This document shows, piece after piece, positions 6,012 to 62,575 of a DNA stretch of 64,000 nucleotides. A program made the translations under genes and the position numbers. The stretch's first letter is position 1, and each line of letters starts with the position of its first letter. The notes beneath the pieces are model-generated. The model was not told the origin of the DNA. It saw nothing but the letters and a program-made list of their open reading frames with translations, and ran no database searches. Source of the stretch: Yponomeuta sedellus (lineage: Eukaryota; Arthropoda; Insecta; Lepidoptera; Yponomeutidae); contig OW203732.1 of assembly GCA_934045075.1 (NCBI GenBank), forward strand, positions 7,155,001 through 7,219,000, given 5' to 3'.

Positions 6012-6179
6012 TAATTCTATGCCGATGAGTCGCCCATTAGCTCAGTTGGAAAGAGCGCTGGCACGGAAAACCAGAGGTCGCGGGTTCGAATCTCGGCATG
6101 GGTGGAATTTTTAGCCTCTAAATAGGTTTTTAAAAATGGTCCTTAGCACGGGTTAGTGCATTAAAAAAAAGGATTTAAT
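6012..6179 (+). mobile_element. SINE-A, full-length long-tail copy
   Basis: A tRNA-like unit: A box TAGCTCAGTTGG, B box GGTTCGAATC, and a 7-bp acceptor-like pairing CGCCCAT/ATGGGTG. It is followed by AGCCTCTAAATAGG and the tail TTAGTGCATTAAAA. Direct repeats CAAATTCTATGA at 6000-6011 and 6180-6191 are a 12-bp target duplication, showing insertion by target-primed reverse transcription. The anticodon arm is damaged, so it is not a working tRNA gene. Confidence 0.88.
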
Positions 6180-6275
6180 CAAATTCTATGAATCAAGTAT
6201 CTAGTTGGTTTTGTTTCCAAGTATTCTTAGCTTTCAAGTGGGAGTCAGCATTTTAAAGACCTTATTATATGTACA

Positions 6276-15785: not shown

Positions 15786-16245
15786 CTCGTTGAGTAGAAC
15801 AATGGACTCGGAAGCGAGAGAGCCAGTGCGGGCATGCACCAATGACTTTGTTTTCTAAGTAATGTTTATACTATTTTTATTTTTAATGCACTAACCCGTG
15901 CTAAGGAACAAATGTAAAAACCTATTTAGAGGCTAAACATTTTTCACCCGTGAGTCGCCCATTGGCTCAATTGGTAGAGCGCTGGCACGGATAGCCAGAG
16001 GTTGCGGGTTCGAATCCCGGCATGGGTGAAATTTTTAGCCTCTAAATAGGTTTTTAAATTCTAAGTAATGTGCCACTCGTTAACCGTCAAAGAGATTGAG
16101 AGGAAACCTGAAGGTCTGAGGTGTTCAAATACCTCAGAGCTTGAAATGGGAAATCCGCTGTGGGCGCGCGTGGTAATTAACCCCATACTCTCTGTCTGAG
16201 AGAACGCTTGTAAACAGAAGTATCACGTTTATGGGCTACAAAAAA
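15786..16245 (+). mobile_element. SINE-C split by a snap-back SINE
   Basis: Head at 15786-15865 (GTAGAACAATGGACTCGG, TGACTTTGTTTTCTAAG). The body resumes at 16059-16245 (GAGGAAACCTGAAGGTCTG, AAATACCTCAGAGC, CATACTCTCTGTCTGAG). The break is the insertion at 15866-16058. Confidence 0.85.
15866..16058 (+). mobile_element. Snap-back SINE-A, 193 bp
   Basis: The left arm is an inverted SINE-A long tail (TTTTTAATGCACTAACCCG, AACCTATTTAGAGGCT). The right arm is a sense tRNA-like unit (GGCTCAATTGGTAGAGC, GGTTCGAATCCCGG) ending TAGGTTTTTAAA. The 13-bp duplication TTCTAAGTAATGT at 15853-15865 and 16059-16071 proves the two arms inserted together into the SINE-C. Confidence 0.9.
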
Positions 16246-25382: not shown

Positions 25383-25690
25383 TAAATAGGTTTTTAAAAT
25401 TGTCCTTAGCACAAGTTAATGCATTAAAAAAGAATATAATCATGTGGGCACAGCGATATCATTCCGATGTAAAACCTAACTGCAAAGGGGCTGCAAGTGA
25501 TGCAAACAATTTCAGCCAGATGTTGCTGCCTGTACGTAAAACAGAGGGTGAAGGGGTTCGAAATTTCACTGATGAAACCGCTGGCTCGGTTAGCCAGAGG
25601 TCGCGGGTTTGAGTCTCGGCATAGGTGGAACTTTTAGCCTCTAAATAGGTTTTTAAAATTGTCCCTAGCACGGGTTAGTGTATTAAAAAG
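25383..25690 (+). mobile_element. SINE-A: an older tail with a long-form copy inserted in it
   Basis: 25383-25440 is an isolated SINE-A tail (TCCTTAGCACAAGTTAATGC). A long-form copy follows. It has a 5' extension of about 140 bp (GATATCATTCCGATGTAAAA, CTTCAGCC-like, CTGCCTGTACGTAA), then the damaged tRNA-like unit and tail. AAGAATATAA occurs on both sides (about 25430 and 25689), a probable target duplication. Confidence 0.75.
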
Positions 25691-26176
25691 AATATAAATT
25701 GGTGATTTACGTACAGAGTGCACTAAGCTCAGTTGTTTATTGGTTGTCTTGACGAGATCTCTTTTAGTGATAGGGCTGCTGTCCGTAATTAAGACTATTA
25801 AGACTATCTATCTAAGTAATAAACGTGCCCGCAGTATCGCCCTCCTCTACCTCCGAAGCCAGTTCAGTTAGCTATAGTACAGAAAACTTACGGATTGCGG
25901 TTCTCGAAACATAGCTCCCAATTAAATTGATTCTAAATACTTATACAACGCAAAAGTTGCACAAAACTGATTTACTATAATCGGAGAGATCACGTTAAAA
26001 CATCAATGATTGTGGTATTTCAAAGCATGAAGCTGGGCAGCACAATTAACTCCTTATGTGAAGAAAAACAATAAAATACAGTAACATAAACTCAGCCTGT
26101 GAGAGACCAGCCTGGGTTGACGACCCACGACCCTAGTCTGAAAATATTTAATTCAAACTAAGTATACTAATCTTTG
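25691..26176. other. No feature recognised
   Basis: Nothing to annotate. Confidence 0.4.
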
Positions 26177-26544: not shown

Positions 26545-26850
26545 CGAATCATATGGGTACAACGATATCATTCCGATGTAAATACCTAACTGCAAAGTAG
26601 GTACGTGGGGCAGTAAGTGATGCAATTTACTTCAGTCAGATGTCGCTGCCTGTACGTAATACAGAGAATAGTGTAAAGATGTACGAAATTTCACTGATGC
26701 TGGTGAGTCGCCCATTAGCTCAGTGGGAAAGAGCGCTGGCATGGATAGCCAGAAGTCGCGGGTTCGAATCCCGGCATGGGTGGAGTTTTTAGCCTCTAAA
26801 TAGGTTTTTAAAATTGTCCTTAGCACGGGTTAGTGCATTAAAATAAAAAT
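26545..26850 (+). mobile_element. SINE-A long form
   Basis: 5' extension CGATATCATTCCGATGTAAA, GCAAAGTAGGTACG, CTGCCTGTACGTAATACAG, ATTTCACTGATGC. The tRNA-like unit is at 26705-26782 (TAGCTCAGTGGG, GGTTCGAATCCCGG), with the tail to TTAGTGCATTAAAATAAAAA. Confidence 0.85.
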
Positions 26851-27080
26851 AGTAAACGCACTTATGTAAATCGAATTATCATACTAGCCAGGAATTGTAG
26901 TTCTATGGGACTAGCCCCAGAGTTTGCCACTTGCCACGGTCCCTGACAGACCTCTTCCGCCTTATCAACTAGTTATTTTTTGAAAGTTTCAATTCCAAAT
27001 TACTGTTCAGTGACGCCTTAGACCACGCCATAGACATAAGATATAAAATCTATTATTTATCTATTCATTCTACAATCAAT

Positions 27081-34570: not shown

Positions 34571-34720
34571 TTCGTGCAAAGAGTTAACTTTCAGTATGTA
34601 ACACTGTTGGAGCCCTACGTCACTGAGCGGAGCCCCGCGCTCCGCAGGCCAAGACCGGCCGGAAAACTTGCGAGCGTTTCGGCGGACCGCGCCGCGGCGT
34701 GCGGCACTTCACCCCATCTC

Positions 34721-34975
34721 TATATTATTTTTTTATTGCACTAACCCGTGCTAAGGACAATTTAAAAACCTATTTAGAGGCTTAAAGTTCAAACCCATGC
34801 TGGGAATCGACCCCGCGACCTCTGTCTATCCACGTAATACAGGGAATATTGTAAAGAGGTTCGAAATTTCACTGATGCCGGTGAGTCGCCCATTAGCTCA
34901 GTTGGAAAGAGCGCTAGCCAGAGGACGCGGGTTTGAATCCCGGTATGGGTGGAATTTTTTGCCTCTAAATAGGTT
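34721..34975 (+). mobile_element. Snap-back SINE-A, 255 bp
   Basis: The left arm is inverted (GCACTAACCCGTGCTAAGGA ... AAACCCATGCTGGG-ATCGACCCC). The centre has GTAATACAGGGAATATTG. The right arm is sense (TAGCTCAGTTGG, GGGTTTGAATCCCGG), ending AAATAGGTT. The flanks TTCACCCCATCTC (34708-34720) and TTCACACCATCTC (34976-34988) are a 13-bp target duplication with one mismatch. Confidence 0.85.
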
Positions 34976-34988
34976 TTCACACCATCTC

Positions 34989-35324: not shown

Positions 35325-35530
35325 TTATAATTTTGTTTTCAAATGCTGACCTCGAATCAGAAGAGATCATGCTGCTTTACTTGAGGGACGAAATGATATA
35401 ACTTTATAAGCATTATTTGTTCAAACTGTTGCATTTATTTTTTATATAAAATGTTGCAGTCGGCACCCATTACTGTTTGTTTAAAATCCTCTAATGGGTC
35501 CCGACTGCATTATTTTATATAAAGTAATAA
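35325..35530. mobile_element. Relic terminus shared with the twin 3.46-kb elements
   Basis: TTTTCAAATGCTGACC, CATGCTGCTTTACTTGAGGG, AACTGTTGCATTTATT, ATGTTGCAGTCGGCACCCAT and the hairpin TAATGGGTCCCGACTGCA match the palindromic ends at 44.6 kb and 55.9 kb. Only one arm is long here. Confidence 0.75.
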
Positions 35531-35532
35531 AT

Positions 35533-35670
35533 GCACAAAATGCCGAACTGTGCTGCACGTGGTTGTAATAATAAAGGGATTCATATGTTTCCCAAGGATT
35601 CTAAAAGAAGAAAGTTGTGGGAAAAGGCCATAAATATTGACAAATATTGGAAAGCCTCTCAAAACAGCTT
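35533..35670 (+). pseudogene. THAP zinc-finger start, transposase-like
   Basis: From ATG: MPNCAARGCNNKGIHMFPKD, SKRRKLWEKAINIDKYWKAS. This is the C2CH THAP DNA-binding fold (two Cys at positions 4 and 9, His at 15 followed by FP, then W). THAP domains open the transposases of P-like and related elements. The frame breaks after about 45 residues, where a reversed SAP piece begins. It lies directly inside the shared terminus, where a transposase gene should start. Confidence 0.72.
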
Positions 35671-37353: not shown

Positions 37354-37367
37354 GCACATTCTATTGT

Positions 37368-37446
37368 AAAAACCTATTTAAAGGCTAATAATTTCACCCA
37401 TGCCGGGATTCGAACCCGCAACCTCTGGCTATCCGTGCCAGCGCAT
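37368..37446 (-). mobile_element. SINE-A, 5' truncated, short-tail form
   Basis: The minus strand reads from CGCTGGCACGGATAGCCAG through GGTTCGAATCCCGG to AGGTTTTT. ATTCTATTGT at 37358-37367 and 37447-37456 is a 10-bp target duplication, so the 3' end at GGTTTTTA is genuine. Confidence 0.85.
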
Positions 37447-37456
37447 ATTCTATTGT

Positions 37457-37940
37457 TACATTTTATTTTTTATGGATTAGCGCTTACGCGCAAATATTTA
37501 GCGCAACATATTTTATCACCTTGACCAGAAAGTGTACTTATTCTGTATTCTTTTATCTCCTCTTAATGTATTAATGACCAAAAAAAAATTAAAGTCTTTA
37601 ACAATTAACAATTGCAAAACGTTGCAATTTTTTTTTTCTAGGATTGAAATTGATAGAATCAAGTCGTTAATCTGACTTAGACGAGTGAAAAATAGACGAG
37701 ACTACCAGGGCACAGCATGTCCATAGCTATTTTTAGAGTTACGAAGTCAACAAGGAACCTTTATAATTTCGCTACATCTGTCCGCCTGTCTGTCTATCCG
37801 TGGCTTAGCACAGCGACGCCGGGTACTAGAAAGCAGAAAATTGATAAAGATATCATTAACTGAGGGTTAGCTGGAAGAAATTACTATCTAGTATTAAGCT
37901 CGTCTTTGTACAAATTATGTTTTCAGTGCAATAACGAATG
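37457..37940. other. No feature recognised
   Basis: AT-rich flank of the microsatellite. Confidence 0.4.
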
Positions 37941-38997
37941 TTCATTCATTCATTCATTCATTCATTCATTCATTCATTCATTCATTCATTCATTCATTCA
38001 TTCATTCATTCATTCATTCATTCATTCATTCATTCATTCATTCATTCATTCATTCATTCATTCATTCATTCATTCATTCATTCATTCATTCATTCATTCA
38101 TTCATTCATTCATTCATTCATTCATTCATTCATTCATTCATTCATTCATTCATTCATTCATTCATTCATTCATTCATTCATTCATTCATTCATTCATTCA
38201 TTCATTCATTCATTCATTCATTCATTCATTCATTCATTCATTCATTCATTCATTCATTCATTCATTCATTCATTCATTCATTCATTCATTCATTCATTCA
38301 TTCATTCATTCATTCATTCATTCATTCATTCATTCATTCATTCATTCATTCATTCATTCATTCATTCATTCATTCATTCATTCATTCATTCATTCATTCA
38401 TTCATTCATTCATTCATTCATTCATTCATTCATTCATTCATTCATTCATTCATTCATTCATTCATTCATTCATTCATTCATTCATTCATTCATTCATTCA
38501 TTCATTCATTCATTCATTCATTCATTCATTCATTCATTCATTCATTCATTCATTCATTCATTCATTCATTCATTCATTCATTCATTCATTCATTCATTCA
38601 TTCATTCATTCATTCATTCATTCATTCATTCATTCATTCATTCATTCATTCATTCATTCATTCATTCATTCATTCATTCATTCATTCATTCATTCATTCA
38701 TTCATTCATTCATTCATTCATTCATTCATTCATTCATTCATTCATTCATTCATTCATTCATTCATTCATTCATTCATTCATTCATTCATTCATTCATTCA
38801 TTCATTCATTCATTCATTCATTCATTCATTCATTCATTCATTCATTCATTCATTCATTCATTCATTCATTCATTCATTCATTCATTCATTCATTCATTCA
38901 TTCATTCATTCATTCATTCATTCATTCATTCATTCATTCATTCATTCATTCATTCATTCATTCATTCATTCATTCATTCATTCATTCATTCATTCAT
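37941..38997. repeat. (TTCA)n microsatellite, about 264 perfect copies
   Basis: An uninterrupted tetranucleotide run of about 1,057 bp; I see no base out of phase. It creates false open frames of Phe-Ile-His-Ser in all three forward phases. Confidence 0.98.
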
Positions 38998-39825
38998 CAT
39001 TAATCAGATCAGACATTAATCAGAGCGACAAAAGAGTAGGATTGAATGTAAAAAAACACTTATGGTGCCTCCCCTACAACTAAACTAGGGATGCATATTT
39101 TATACCCCCTATACTACTGAGTGGAGTGTCGTTTGATTGGTAGATTAAAAATATTGTGAGTATAAAACCTTTTTTTGATTTAGGGACTGGCAGAAGGGAT
39201 TGAGCTTTCAAGCATAAAATTTTCCTCCCGGCTAAACGGTTGATTGCAGAAACAAATTGGGGCTTTTAGTTCAGTAAACACCTGATTGTACGGAACGCAC
39301 TCTGCACGTGGCCCGCCTTGCGTTTGGCCGGTTTTTTTAAACTAAAAAGTCGTAAGAAAGGCCATGAGCAGTCCATCTTGTAGAATTCTGCGGTCATAAA
39401 AATATTCGAAAGAATATTTTGCCGCGCCCGTGCCGCACCGCGCTGCTTCAGTGTGGTTTAAGCTTTAAGGTACCGTTTAACTTAGAAACAAGTTCTGTTT
39501 GAGCACAAAGAAACCAAGAGGAAAAGCTTCGTTTTTCCTACAAATATATTGAATCCACTTTCTTGTTAAGGTGTGACTTAAAGCAAACTTGTATTTCCGG
39601 GTAGTGGACAAACTTGTATTTCCGGGTAGTGGAAATCTTTTGTCAGTAACCAAATTATTATTGTCGCATCCCCGTGGTTGTTCAATTTATTCATGGATTG
39701 ATTTGAAAGAGTACGACTGTGGCATAAGGATGGGTGAGCTACTTGTGAATTGCTTGTTATACACCGATATGATACGTCATTGGTTTATGACAAGCATTTT
39801 TCATCCATTAAGCAACGAAAAAATA
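38998..39825. other. No gene; one 25-bp tandem duplication
   Basis: CAAACTTGTATTTCCGGGTA GTGGA occurs twice back to back at about 39582-39633. Frames here are not convincing. Confidence 0.5.
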
Positions 39826-44500: not shown

Positions 44501-44963
44501 GTCAAAAATAAAAAAATATATTTAAAAAAATTAAAAGAACCCGACTGCAGTGATAAATCAACTGAAAGGGAAAAAATAAGATAATTTTATTTTCAAATGC
44601 TAATGTCGAATCAGAAGAGTTCATGCTGCTTTACTTGAGGGACCAAATAATATAACTTTATTAGCGTTATTTGCTCAAACTGTTGCATTTATTATTTTAT
44701 ATAAAATGTTGCAGTCGGGACCCATTACTGTTTGTTTAAAGTCCTCTAATGGGTCCCGACTGCAACATTTTATATAAAATAATAAATGCAACAGTTTGAG
44801 CAAATAACGCTAATAAAGTTATATTATTTGGTCCCTCAAGTAAAGCAGCATGAACTCTTCTGATTCGACATTAGCATTTGAAAATAAAATTATCTTATTT
44901 TTTCCCTTTCAGTTGATTTATCACTGCAGTCGGGTTCTTTTAATTTTTTTAAATATATTTTTT
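41493..44963. mobile_element. Twin element, copy 1 (about 3.47 kb)
   Basis: Nearly identical to 52763-56223: by eye about ten substitutions and a few small indels, including a 12-bp tandem duplication at about 42451-42474. It starts at GGAGGGTAATGTG and lacks the CCCGACTGCAG end present in copy 2. Contents in order: a (GTAT)n run at 41515-41550; diverged internal repeats (41700-42265); CG-rich GGCCGAAGGCCG motifs (43675-44050); a terminal palindrome. No convincing protein; the short frames are the same in both copies only because the DNA is. Confidence 0.92.
44512..44963. repeat. Terminal palindrome of twin copy 1, arms about 212 bp
   Basis: The arm runs from AAATATATTTAAAAAAATTA through CCCGACTGCAGTGATAA, CTTTACTTGAGGGACC and GTTGCAGTCGGGACCCATTA, then turns back after a 13-20-bp loop (CTGTTTGTTTAAAGTCCTC). 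Near-perfect. Confidence 0.95.
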
Positions 44964-44975
44964 TCATATTTCTAA

Positions 44976-45720: not shown

Positions 45721-46313
45721 GCACGGGTCACGGGTAAACTGAAGCGGCGAGTACAGTCAGTTATTTTGGGAAGTCACTTTTTGTTTTTCGTAGCCGGCCT
45801 AAACATAACTGTTTATGAATTTCTCGAATCCTTAAAAAACATTCAATAATTGCGTGACCTAAGTTTTCTTATCTAACATATTGTATTATAATACTACCTT
45901 GTCGTCTGCAATGGCACCATCTGGCATGAATATCTACAGGTATTGTATAACTGTCACAAACAGCGAACTTACTTACCCAACTCTCGCTCTCGCTACCTAG
46001 ATAGGTACCTGCAGTGTTACCAACTTTAATCCACGTCGCTACGTACTAGGAACTTACTTAAATATTCTCAAGTTATGTTACCGTGAAAACGTTGTTCAAA
46101 TAATTAGTTATTAATTTTTTAACAAAATGGTTATTCTATTTATCCTTGCTAGTCCATTTTAGTAAACAACATTCTACCATGTAATGTATGGCTTTTTAGT
46201 CGAAAACTTCCATATTCCCATAAATTAAGTAATCGGGGAGACTATTTTAGATAATATGCTGAGAATTGTTGTCTGGAAGAAATTTCTTTTAGTAATAAGT
46301 CCGCCACTTGTAC
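45721..46313. other. No feature recognised
   Basis: Nothing to annotate. Confidence 0.4.
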
Positions 46314-46443
46314 AGTACTATACTATTTTTATGTTTAATGCACTAACCCGTGCTAAGGACAAATTAATTTTAAAAACCTATTAAGAGGCTAAACATTTCA
46401 CCCATGCCGGGATTTTTAGCCTCTAAATAGGTTTTTAAAAAAA
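46314..46443 (+). mobile_element. Snap-back SINE-A, shortest form (130 bp)
   Basis: An inverted tail (TTTAATGCACTAACCCGTGC, AACCTATTAAGAGGCT, CACCCATGCCGGGA) is joined directly to a sense tail (TTTTTAGCCTCTAAATAGG). Both tRNA-like units are deleted. TTGTAC flanks at 46308-46313 and 46444-46449. Confidence 0.8.
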
Positions 46444-49112: not shown

Positions 49113-50160
49113 TGTGACGCTTAAACTTTCGAGTACCTGGTATCAAGCCTTAGCAAAATTGATTAGCTAAGTACGCATTTTATGCTGAAAATATATTTTA
49201 GCGTAAAGCGCAAGCGCTGTTGAACTAGTTTCACTGCTTGATCTGTGGCGCTTCAACTCTATGTATGCATCTGATGAAGAAACATGAAAGCGCACAGGAG
49301 GGCGAGTGTTAATAATGCATTGCTGTTCGTTTCAATAACGCTATTGGTAATCTACCCAATCGCATTCTAATGGCATAACCTGTGCAAGTCAACTGATGTC
49401 TATTTAATTTGCGCGGGTTACACCGTTGGAATGATATTGTAAGTACTGTCATTGTGTATCAAATAACATTCATTGTCGGGCTTCAATTATTATATTGAAC
49501 AACGATATATTTATAAGACACTAAACGACGGAGACACTATAAGACCCTGAAATAAAATTAAATGAAACTTATTTCGCAGAATAAGAAACCTTTTACATTG
49601 CTTTACACTGTTTCTTAAACTCTGGTGTGAACGTAGCTTCACGGATGTTCTCCTTTGTAAAACGGTCCTTTCACGCCTTCCCGTCAAGTGCCGCAAACAT
49701 GGGATTATGTCCCTAATTTATAACCTGTTGTAGCCCTTCGGAAGCCGCGAATTCCGGAGCGCTTAAATTACGACGTCACAGCGATTATGACTGTGTTATG
49801 AATTATTTCCTGCATAGAAAGGGCCCGAAGAGACAGATTTTGAGTGAGTACGCCCACTCTGGTTTCGTGAATAAACAGATAAAGTCTTTTGCAAACTTGG
49901 AGTTAATCTCACAAATGGTTCCTGAAATATTTACAGTATTTCAAACTAAAACTTTTGCTGTTAGTGAACTTGACTTGCAGAACCACTCTATGGCTTTAGT
50001 AAATGTACATATTTTGATTTGTAAGTTATGGTTTACTCTTACCTTACTGGTAAACAAATAATTTCCTCACAATACAAACACTTGACCTGGTTCCAAAATA
50101 GAATAGCTTGTGGTATGGTTACCAGGTAAGATGATTCCCAAAGTTGATAATACACGTGCA
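49113..50160. other. No recognised gene
   Basis: An 87-codon frame at 49798-50061 (MNYFLHRKGPKRQILSEYAH...) has no recognisable domain. Nothing else seen. Confidence 0.35.
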
Positions 50161-50590
50161 TTATACTATTATTATTTTTAATGCACTAACCCGTGCTAAG
50201 GACACTTTTAAAAAACCTATTTAGAGGCTAAAAATTCCACCCATGCCGGGATTCGAACCCGCGACCTCTGGCTATCCGTGCCAGCGCTCTATCCAACTGA
50301 GCTAATGGGCGAATCACCGGCATCAGTGAAATTTCGAACTTCTTTACACTATTTGATGTAAAAACCTAACTGCAAAGTAGGTAGTCGGGGCTGTTAGTGA
50401 TGCAATCTACTTCAGCCAGATGTCGCTGCCTGTACGTAATACAGAGAATAAAGTAAAGAGGTTCAAAATTTCACTGATGCCGTGAGTCGCCCATTGGCTC
50501 AATTGGTAGAGCGCTGGCACGGATAGCCAGAGGTTGCGAGTTCGAATCCCGGCATGGGTGAAATTTTTAGCCTCTAAATAGGTTTTTAAA
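50161..50590 (+). mobile_element. Snap-back SINE-A, complete form (430 bp)
   Basis: The left arm (about 50179-50355) is an entire inverted SINE-A: tail, CACCCATGCCGGGATTCGAA, GAGCTAATGGGCG, CATCAGTGAAATTTCGAAC. The centre holds the long-form extension (GTAAAAACCTAACTGCAAAG ... CTGCCTGTACGTAATACAG). The right arm (about 50450-50590) is sense: ATTTCACTGATGCC, GGCTCAATTGGTAGAGC, TTCGAATCCCGG, TAGGTTTTTAAA. Two tRNA-like units thus face away from each other. Confidence 0.88.
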
Positions 50591-51007
50591 TCTTTGCTTT
50601 ATTCTTTCTTTGCCTTTTTAATCTTTGCCCTGTAAGTGCAATCCGTATAGCAATAACTTGAAAAAATAGGTTCTGAACCCAGATGCACGTGATAATACAC
50701 CCAAACATTATCATCATTATACGTAAACAGCAGATTAACAAAAAAGTGAGGTCTTGCTGCGTTCAACCATCTAAAGTTGTTTTTAGCAAAGGGGGGTGCT
50801 TAGATTCTGGGGTATTTAGATTTTTCTGATGAGAAAGAAGTCTTTGTAGTTCTGTAGTCAAGATCCGATGAGTTTGGTTTTTACAACAAATACCTGTATA
50901 ATTCTTGATTTAACTTGCTTGTAAATGCACGGCCTCGTGCAAATACTTATTTACATTTAATAGAGCAATCAAAATATTAATGATTCGCGATACTCATACA
51001 TAGTTGT
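50591..51007. other. No feature recognised
   Basis: Nothing to annotate. Confidence 0.4.
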
Positions 51008-52820: not shown

Positions 52821-55800
52821 GTATGTCCGATTCTATGTTCCCTCATAACTCCTTAACCAATGGTCAGATTTTGTTAAACAAGGTGTCATTCGATTCGGCA
52901 TCCTTGCGCGGGTGTCATAGGCTATATAAAATCATAATTATGCGATCAGAACCGTGAAGAAAAATAAAATTCGTTAAGAAGCTTCGTTAAAGTACAGCTA
53001 GGAGCTACTAGATGGCGCTGTTATATTTAGTTTATTGAATTCGAATACTAATTTTATTGAACTACCCCTAACAGGTGTGAAATATTTAAAACAGAATTTT
53101 GCGGATGACGTAGGTTACATAAAATCAGTATTAATAGAGAACCAACGGAACAAAAAATTACATTTACTTCTAAGCAATTAAAGTACCACTTTTAGCCACT
53201 TGATGGCGCTGCCATATTTTATTTATTCTATTACATGTGTATACATAATTTCGGCTTTGGTCTACATGTAAACAAACCATTTATAGAATCGGTACAAATG
53301 CGGAAAGAAATAATTCCTTTAAAGTGGTTTGATCCTTCTAGATCATTCATTTAATTAAAAAATATAATTTTGTTTAACTACGCCTAACACGTGCAAAGAG
53401 AATTAAAATATTTAAAAGAGAATTTTGCGGGTGTCGTTGATTACATAAAATCAGCATTAATAGAGAACAAACGCAACACAAATAATATTCACTTCTAAGT
53501 AATTAAAGTACTGTAGCATTAGTTCCTCTACCCAACCACAGATGGCGCTGTTTGTGTTCTAAATTGCGGTATGGTTTTGTCCGAAGGCCCTACATAATAT
53601 TAAACAAAATTGGATAGTATTTGAGCGTTTGCGAATCACCCCGACCAATACTGACTAGGAGTGGGTCGTTGTCCGATTTTTGGACGACGAAACGCAACCG
53701 TTTTTTCTGGAACGAAAACAGGTCCTCGTTCGCAACTGGAACTGGTTTCATTGTATGCGAACGAGCAAGGCGCAGAGGACGGTCAAACGAGTGCGAACGA
53801 GACGAAATCACGAAACATCGGAAAAAATAAGTTGTTTTACACGATATTCGACTGCATACTCATAGACATAAAGATTACTTTATTGTATCACAGACTAAAA
53901 CGAACGGAACGAGCAAGGAGCCGACGACGACGTCGCAATGATCTCATTACGTTCTAGGCTCTATTAATATAGAACTAAAGGACATATCCGCGTCAAACAA
54001 TCTAAGGACTGGTCTCGCGACGAACAAACGCTGGCACTGCTTTAGAATGAAACGTAAAACGGTCCTATCGTCGCGGAACACAAAACGGTCTTATAAAACG
54101 GTTCGTCTTTGCAACGATCACGCCTAATACTGACTGACCACTAATAATTGGCACGACTAGTGACGTAGGTAATATACCTCGCTTTGCGCTGTGGTGCGAG
54201 TAGTACAGTTGCTGTAATCCTTAGTTTCATATTGCTACAATAAATAGATCCCTAAGTACGTGCTGTCGTGCTAAAACAACGTTTCTCTTCTTGTCTGCTG
54301 AAACCCTGTCCTGTCCTGTCCATGTAAACAAACCGTCTATAGAAACGATATTATGTGCTGAAAGAAATAATGCCTATAAAGTGTTTATTTCTTTCTACGC
54401 CATTCGTTTATCTCATTAATTTAAGAAATATCAACCTCATAGGGGGTAAAAATAATTATTTTTTAACACTGATATTAATTTCCTACTGACACTTAGACCA
54501 AAAGTAACTGAACAAAATATATAAAGTGTAGCATGTAACTCCTTTTCCCCTGTGCGATTATAGTCAGACAAGCTGGGTTCAAAGAAGAAACAATAAATGA
54601 TAAAAAAATATTTGAACGCTCTCACTGGTAACCGAAGACGGATCCTCCGTGACCTCGTATCGTTAGGACCCATGAAATTTTAAAAAATTCTAGCTCTATT
54701 CATCTTAACGAATTTTATCTCGTTTCCTCCGAAATTAAGATTATGATTTTGTGTTAGGTTTCCTGTTCACTTGTAAGACCAAAGATTGCTTATCTACACC
54801 TAAATATTCAGTGCTTTAGGGGGCCACCTCAAGATGAATTTGTTATAGTTTCATTTTAATACCGGTAATATTTTGGCATTCAGAAAACCAAGATTTTGTG
54901 TGTCTCCACGCCGATGCTACAACTCTAAATAACTACGCCAGGCCGAAGGCCGAGCCCCATCATGCGGGTGCGAGGAAACTTGCCGCGACGAGGTTGAAGG
55001 CCGAGCTCAATACACGTCGCGGCACGGCCGAAGGCTGTGAAGCGGGCTAGAGGAATACTCCCACGGCGATTCCAAATGCTGAGCTCTATTTACGCTGATG
55101 CCAAATGGAGAGACTATTAGCGCGGCCGAAGGCCGCGACAGTTACTTAAAGTTGCTGTTAGGAGTAAACCTGTCGCGCCTTTGTACAGGCCGCGGCTGAA
55201 GGCTCAGACCATTTATGTTCCCATTTACAAGTCCTTATTCTAAGTAATTAGCGAGACCGAAGACTGGGCCCAGCAATGCAAGCACGAAGAATTCTACTCT
55301 GGAGATGTCGAAAGCTGAGCGCCGTTCAGGTCGAGGACATAATTCGTGACTATTCCAGTCCCCACCTACAATCGTTAACATTAAATAACTAGGTGCAGTG
55401 GAACGCTTTTAGGCTACATAAAAAACAGACAATTTATGTAAGGATAATAAAGAAAAAAATCTGTCGTTTCCTTTGCAAATATTCTAGATAGTTTAACACC
55501 ATTAGACCATATTCATTATACTAGCTAAAAAATATCATACGACATAAATTTTTAATGCAGGCATGTGGTACCTATGACTATATCAAACAAGTATATCAGT
55601 AAAAATATTTATGATTTGCCGAGACATGTCCATTGTCGAACAAAAGAAAACAAAGCAATAAACTAAAATTCATTTAGGAAATAAAATAATATAACGATTT
55701 AAAGCATGTAAGCAGAAAAGGATGGACCTTTAAATTTTATCGTTTTACTGAGTCACTAAAAGGTCAAAAATAAAAAAATATATTTAAAAAAATTAAAAGA

Positions 55801-56223
55801 ACCCGACTGCAGTGATAAATCAACTGAAAGGGAAAAAATAAGATAATTTTATTTTCAAATGCTAATGTCGAATCAGAAGAGTTCATGCTGCTTTACTTGA
55901 GGGACCAAATAATATAACTTTATTAGCGTTATTTGCTCAAACTGTTGCATTTATTATTTTATATAAAATGTTGCAGTCGGGACCCATTACTGTTTGTTTA
56001 AAGTCCTCTAATGGGTCCCGACTGCAACATATTATAAAATAATAAATGCAACAGTTTGAGCAAATAACGCTTATAAAGTTATATTATTTGGTCCCTCAAG
56101 TAAAGCAGCATGAACTCTTCTGATTCGACATTAGCATTTGAAAATAAAATTATCTTATTTTTTCCCTTTCAGTTGATTTATCACTGCAGTCGGGTTCTTT
56201 TAATTTTTTTAAATATATTTTTT
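52741..56223. mobile_element. Twin element, copy 2 (about 3.48 kb, intact left end)
   Basis: Begins CCCGACTGCAGCGAAGCC; the right side carries the matching CTGCAGTCGGG near 56184-56195, so CCCGACTGCAG appears to be the inverted end. The interior is as copy 1. Homology continues to AAATATATTTTTT at 56223, then stops. The differing flanks argue for transposition rather than tandem duplication. No target duplication was recognised. Confidence 0.9.
55772..56223. repeat. Terminal palindrome of twin copy 2
   Basis: As in copy 1, with two small changes (GCAACATATTATAAAAT, CGCTTATAAAG), so the arms are slightly less perfect. Confidence 0.94.
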
Positions 56224-62484: not shown

Positions 62485-62575
62485 TCTACCTCTTCTGGAT
62501 AGCCAGTGGTCGCGGGTTCGAATCCCGGCATGGGTGGAATTTTTAGCCTCTAAATAGGTTTTAAAAATGTCATAC
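62485..62575 (+). mobile_element. SINE-A, 5' truncated, short-tail form
   Basis: Starts inside the anticodon arm (GGATAGCCAGTGGTCGCGGG) and ends CTAAATAGGTTTTAAA. AATGTCATACA at 62474-62484 and 62576-62586 is an 11-bp target duplication. Confidence 0.88.

Follow-up and report, generated by a model that had tools for sequence, protein, structure and literature searches.

Hairpin insertions of a tRNA-derived SINE in Yponomeuta sedellus: probable products of twin priming

Introduction

How do four insertions of one SINE, each an inverted copy fused head to head with a sense copy, come to share both of their outer ends? The question is raised by a 64,000-nucleotide stretch of the genome of the lepidopteran Yponomeuta sedellus (assembly GCA_934045075.1, contig OW203732.1, positions 7,155,001 to 7,219,000), referred to as a whole as the window, in which four such hairpins (HP1 to HP4) are found. 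The initial annotation proposed that the hairpin form itself is copied and inserted, on the argument that independent 5' inversions would not give the same breakpoints. Another model is offered by the twin priming, or 5' inversion, of LINE-1, which was reportedly described by Ostertag and Kazazian in 2001. Twin priming produces an inverted segment through the joining of two cDNAs of opposite sense (PMC2912911, PMC12016303, PMC13174262). Here, we compare these models using the window and a survey of the genome.

Results

The window contains nine insertions of one tRNA-derived SINE, five plain and four in the form of head-to-head hairpins. The fullest single copy (26549..26856, plus strand) is our reference for the unit, numbered r1-r308 from its start, with a tRNA-like part near r158-231, a short 3' end site (S) at r264 and a long 3' end (L) near r306. 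The other plain insertions are a tandem pair arranged as a head-to-tail direct array and closed by L (25383..25697, plus strand) and three single copies with target duplications, one ending at L (6019..6182, plus strand) and two at S (37363..37444, minus strand; 62496..62568, plus strand). Both Rfam tRNA and ARAGORN match the tRNA-like part, in which putative A and B boxes can be recognised by eye; the target duplications are of variable length, as in other tRNA-derived SINEs. Some pattern scans of contigs from viruses and bacteria turned up four short matches (19-25 bp) and no more, and others turned up none; a phage search gave 61 records, with 19 of the 20 listed matches on annotated tRNA genes. 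Elsewhere in the window, a long microsatellite occupies 37906-39083 and its open frames read as FIHS repeats.

The four hairpins were recovered at the places and with the anatomy initially reported: the left arm is antisense with a TTTAATGCACTAACCCG tail, and the right arm is sense and ends in AAATAGGTTTTTAAA (TTTTC in HP2). HP1 consists of a left arm at 15866..15942 (minus strand, L end, with its inner boundary placed only to within some bases) and a right arm at 15943..16058 (plus strand, S end, tRNA-like region inside); HP2 of arms at 34721..34831 (minus strand, L end, unit positions 194-303) and 34832..34977 (plus strand, S end, positions 106-260); HP3 of arms at 46316..46414 (minus strand, L end, positions 219-306) and 46412..46440 (plus strand, S end, positions 238-265); and HP4 of arms at 50156..50353 (minus strand, L end, positions 119-306) and 50354..50590 (plus strand, S end, positions 27-264), the latter with subfamily markers unlike those of the left arm. 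When up to three mismatches are allowed, the window matches the S-end 19-mer 14 times (0.07 expected) and the tail 25-mer 8 times (0.00 expected), so far over expectation that chance is excluded. The RNA of HP4 is predicted to fold strongly (-268.8 kcal/mol, z -30). That each hairpin carries two outward-facing tRNA-like units is borne out for 50161-50590 and not for the others, ARAGORN finding one in HP1 and zero in HP2 and HP3.

The target duplications claimed for three of the hairpins are all present: 13/13 around HP1 (15853..15865 and 16059-16071), 12/13 around HP2 (34708..34720 and 34976-34988) and the 6-bp TTGTAC around HP3 (at 46308 and 46444). HP4 has a candidate duplication, TGATAATACAC, at 50145..50155 on the left and 50690-50700 on the right, separated from the S end by 99 bp of unassigned origin (50591..50689) with no second copy in the window; this duplication may be real if the 99 extra bases on the right are part of the insert, and it does not match the target motif of the other insertions (see below).

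A further inverted repeat lies inside the HP4 unit, in which the leader before the tRNA-like part (50457-50489) is partly complementary to the stretch after it (50543-50575; 22/26), perhaps as the relic of an inverted arm or as a stem in the RNA. In a shuffle test, an inverted repeat within the plain unit was supported in the HP4 copy (0/1000) and more weakly in the HP2 copy (11/1000), and unsupported in the reference copy at 26549-26856 (800/1000 shuffles; 379/1000 under another scoring).

We searched the whole assembly (657.5 Mb, 57 contigs) with each of the four hairpins and scored 40 candidates per query, a set that is biased as places were selected for likeness to the query. Many places match most of a hairpin: all of the best 40 places listed for HP2, HP1 and HP3 cover three quarters of the query or more, as do about ten places besides HP4 itself among the matches listed for HP4. 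To reduce the bias, we took a second sample from the window, from six 10-kb stretches whose positions had been preset and from the flanks of loci L006-L012, L014-L042 and L050-L060. Clusters shorter than 40 bp or cut by a locus edge do not enter its counts (among them four from the preset stretches, one of which is inverted), nor do the HP3-query loci L061-L068. Inverted forms make up 4/9 of the insertions in the window, 4/8 in the preset stretches and 11/18 in the flanks; of these, the sample least open to bias is that from the preset stretches, small as it is, because the window was chosen for its hairpins and the flanks may hold pieces of neighbouring inserts. The window and the preset 60 kb together give 8/17, a small sample; the 8 hairpins in these 124 kb, scaled to 657 Mb, extrapolate roughly to about 40,000 in the genome.

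The outer ends follow a simple rule. In all four window hairpins one arm ends at L (about r306) and the other at S (about r264, at TTTTTAAA), and among the 82 clusters parsed, 66 are inverted, comprising 57 L/S, 2 L/L, 1 S/S and 6 with an untyped end, so that 57 of the 60 typed at both ends are L/S. Outside the query matches the figure is 15 of 16 (window 4/4, preset 60 kb 4/4, flanks 7/8), the remaining insertion being S/S and three more, all in flanks, being untyped. Hairpins sharing both outer ends are thus a genome-wide class, as predicted, and most of them have target duplications. S ends fall at r257-272, inside the unit, as internal priming in a twin-primed insertion would have it; the S end of L019 is at r257, where AGGT occurs also in the target duplication. 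L and S are also the element's two usual 3' ends: of the single inserts, 8 close at L and 5 at S, including those with target duplications in the window (L at 6019, S at 37363 and 62496). Because each end also closes plain insertions, shared outer ends alone do not imply a copied hairpin, and the initial argument from breakpoints falls as a rule.

Most L/S hairpins lie whole within a target duplication. A duplication score of at least 8 was reached by 48 of the 57 L/S inverted insertions and by 43 of 2000 random pairs, and a score of at least 10 by 39 of 57 and 9 of 2000 (tandem repeats were masked in the random pairs, since the unmasked background was inflated); the modal length is 12 bp (17/48). 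The opposite-sense segments of most L/S insertions therefore lie within one target duplication, as in twin priming. SINEs are dense in this region, which might suggest two separate insertions that happen to adjoin; that a single duplication encloses both arms in 48 of 57 cases, at a rate far from that of random pairs, makes this hardly credible. Both cut sites of the L/S insertions have in common the motif AC|NA (n=48 for each side), with A at -2 in 35, C at -1 in 23 and A at +2 in 28 on the L side, and 27, 22 and 29, respectively, on the S side. Since the same motif stands at each cut, both target ends look enzyme-cut. The plain insertions with a duplication (n=10) are too few to judge the motif on their 5' side.

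If the hairpin itself were the mobile unit as a rule, with an RNA running from antisense S at its 5' end to L at its 3' end being copied and inserted and the centres losing bases later, outer ends would be identical genome-wide, as they are, and the one 5' and one 3' end of each RNA would likewise yield the L/S rule. The centres, in contrast, vary: the 15 L/S insertions that entered the sample without a hairpin query have 15 distinct junction pairs, so that, two recurrent classes excepted, the shared centre of a foldback unit is absent, and the eight HP4-query loci have eight different centres. What copying as a unit looks like is seen in an unrelated hairpin family of the same window (44510-44964, 55773-56223 and, partial, 35327-35535), with arms of up to 218 nt that are 98-100% complementary and a 19-nt loop, in which the three copies have one centre, with one base different in the partial copy. 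This family may belong to a larger element, as its copies also share sequence beyond the hairpin; immediately to the right of the partial copy, the DNA encodes MPNCAARGCN, which resembles the start of a THAP domain.

Two junctions do recur exactly, and their recurrence counts against twin priming and for a mobile hairpin. The junction of r202 with r102 (202/102), a centre similar to that of HP2 and with three shared bases (CTG), was found in 17 of 30 HP2-query loci and as an exact 18-mer in 13, the HP2 query itself favouring such centres. The HP3 junction 25-mer is exact at 90 places in the genome, its reversed control at none. The tail variant AATAGTGTA is shared by all 7 further loci fetched with this junction, compared with 19 of the 56 readable tails in the remaining fetched loci; this common tail likewise favours copying of the hairpin. 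We had read the window by itself as proof of independent events, and this was reweighed after the exact recurrence of some centres emerged in the genome loci. Yet L042 and L067 have L and S exchanged about the junction of their class, and the arms of HP3 (r219-306 and r238-265) lack the A box and most of the B box, both at odds with a mobile hairpin. Apparent microhomology at the junction amounts to 3 bp in both the 202/102 class and the HP3 class, and to about none in HP2 and HP4. Because the centres vary and each outer end is also found on plain single insertions, we reject copying of the hairpin as the rule and regard it as unlikely.

A mixture, in which twin priming makes most hairpins afresh and a few (the HP3 class and perhaps 202/102) are read through and copied as templates, would accommodate the two recurrent junctions. 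It would also suit the reversed order of HP3, where the L arm extends further 5' than the S arm, the S arm being the longer-reaching one in 44 of 48 two-arm inserts, a count to which the choice of queries contributes, and in 12 of the 15 inserts not chosen by a query, arrays being counted by their inner ends. However, 90 exact copies are few beside some 40,000 roughly extrapolated hairpins, so that a hot junction could explain the recurrence of HP3, and we hold this refinement of twin priming to be possible, if somewhat doubtful.

The same order of the arms bears on snap-back, in which the first cDNA would fold on itself and copy itself into a head-to-head form. As the S arm has unit positions missing from the L arm in those 44 of 48 inserts, and the S-primed cDNA has no L tail, neither arm could have been the template of the other. 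Snap-back is contradicted for most inserts and very improbable in general, and is possible for inserts like L042.

Whole units are repeated between the outer ends at several loci. Six loci (L006, L007, L043, L047, L063 and L067) have tandem units, and L064 runs off its locus; the HP3-junction loci vary by whole units on both sides of the junction. In the six arrays, units meet at r305/306|r1 and S occurs only at an outer end, for which reason S looks like a priming site and not an RNA end. The reading from the window alone that S is the end of a separate RNA at a Pol III terminator was given up when genome loci put S at the outer ends of arrays. The arrays fit cDNA chains begun at L and S that crossed units before joining; copying of a master with varied ends would also fit. 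Penelope-like elements and retrozymes resemble this SINE in their tandem and inverted arrangement. Unlike in retrozymes, a hammerhead ribozyme was not found in the one array searched (L047:2700-4100; Rfam, E up to 1).

Several inserts are complex. L011, the flanks of L022 and L051, L054 and L066 do not match the simple scheme, a misfit that counts against twin priming. At L010, L011, L023, L054 and L066 there are at least two inversions, S/S ends or neighbouring pieces, and no single simple event explains them.

Arm comparisons bear on whether one RNA or two served each insertion. We tabulated by hand the arms of 39 inserts (16 of class 202/102 and 23 others; L006, L007, L011, L035, L042, HP3 and the preset inserts stand outside the table), 36 of which overlap enough for comparison. 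Arms within one insertion are more alike than re-paired arms in class 202/102 (1/2000 shuffles; 8/5000 without L037, which is type a in both arms where the other members are type b), a pairing at odds with a mobile hairpin. The same holds for 20 other inserts (0/5000), but the signal weakens without the marker sites (146/5000) and is absent among the type-b others alone (1426/5000), which counts against twin priming. So do the mixed subfamily markers of the HP4 arms, since arms with different marker sets mean that this insert drew on two RNAs or on a multimer of mixed units. In a discordance test, HP1 and HP4 showed 1/109 differences between their right arms and 8/73 between their left arms (p 0.003), a signal that weakened to p 0.04 and 0.09 once bases near the junction and in the tail were removed.

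Discussion

We consider it probable that twin priming, or target-primed reverse transcription from both target strands, is as a rule the origin of these hairpin insertions of a tRNA-derived SINE. The two target strands would be cut at similar motifs, about 12 bp from each other; one of the resulting ends would prime on the 3' tail of the SINE RNA and give the L end, and the other would prime within the RNA, on a fixed A-tract, UUUUUAAAA, to give the S end. Each cDNA would then proceed toward the 5' end of the RNA, sometimes across several tandem units, and the two would end up joined head to head, with a few bases matching at the join in some classes. It is plausible that the target ends prime on A-rich RNA at L and at S. 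This proposal rests on the L/S rule, on target duplications with a motif in common, on centres that vary and on extension in tandem; from these we infer the RNA templates, the order of the cuts, a partner LINE and the use of one or two RNAs per insertion. It is tempting to go further and to suppose that two-ended integration is the normal mode for this SINE and a candidate partner enzyme, with both strands cut at one motif and each end priming at its own set site, L or S; this we put forward tentatively, at a little short of an even chance.

The likeness to LINE-1 twin priming lies in an inverted segment within one target duplication and in opposite-sense cDNAs that are joined, in LINE-1 often at short matches. 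This case differs in that the element is a SINE, with a fixed second priming site, widely overlapping arms and tandem units, and in that inverted forms make up about half of a small sample. In two surveys, 5' inversions affect 30.9% of 2068 L1 insertions and 1/5554 Alu insertions (PMC2912911), or 18-22% of L1 and 0.02% of 5936 germline Alu insertions (PMC12016303). A 5'-inverted Alu is likewise a SINE with an inverted 5' part, but on these accounts (PMC2912911, PMC12016303) the rate for human Alu is more than a thousandfold below the 8/17 of our small sample, and so high a rate itself argues against twin priming here. Inverted chimeras of small RNAs with L1 have been attributed to twin priming in PMC4476161 and PMC13174262. 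According to the former, in inverted U5 snRNA/L1 or SVA chimeras the second end of the target primes at an internal site of a small RNA, as we propose for S, and in four U5 cases priming took place in the same single-stranded region; unlike our hairpins, these chimeras join two unlike RNAs and amount, in that account, to a handful of cases (PMC4476161). The lepidopteran SINEs PxSE (PMC8010984) and HaSE (PMC3272025) also have a tRNA-like promoter part, and the portions of their descriptions at hand, unlike what we see here, contain no inverted class. In the open-licence literature we came across no SINE family in which inverted copies are common; as evidence that none exists, this is weak.

Of LINE integration, the half that involves second-strand cutting and synthesis is poorly understood. 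A SINE family in which about half of the sampled insertions seemingly record two priming events offers many natural examples of how the second end is handled, and its fixed priming sites and readable target motif on both strands aid such study. Two-ended insertions would, moreover, seed the genome with many hairpin-forming sequences.
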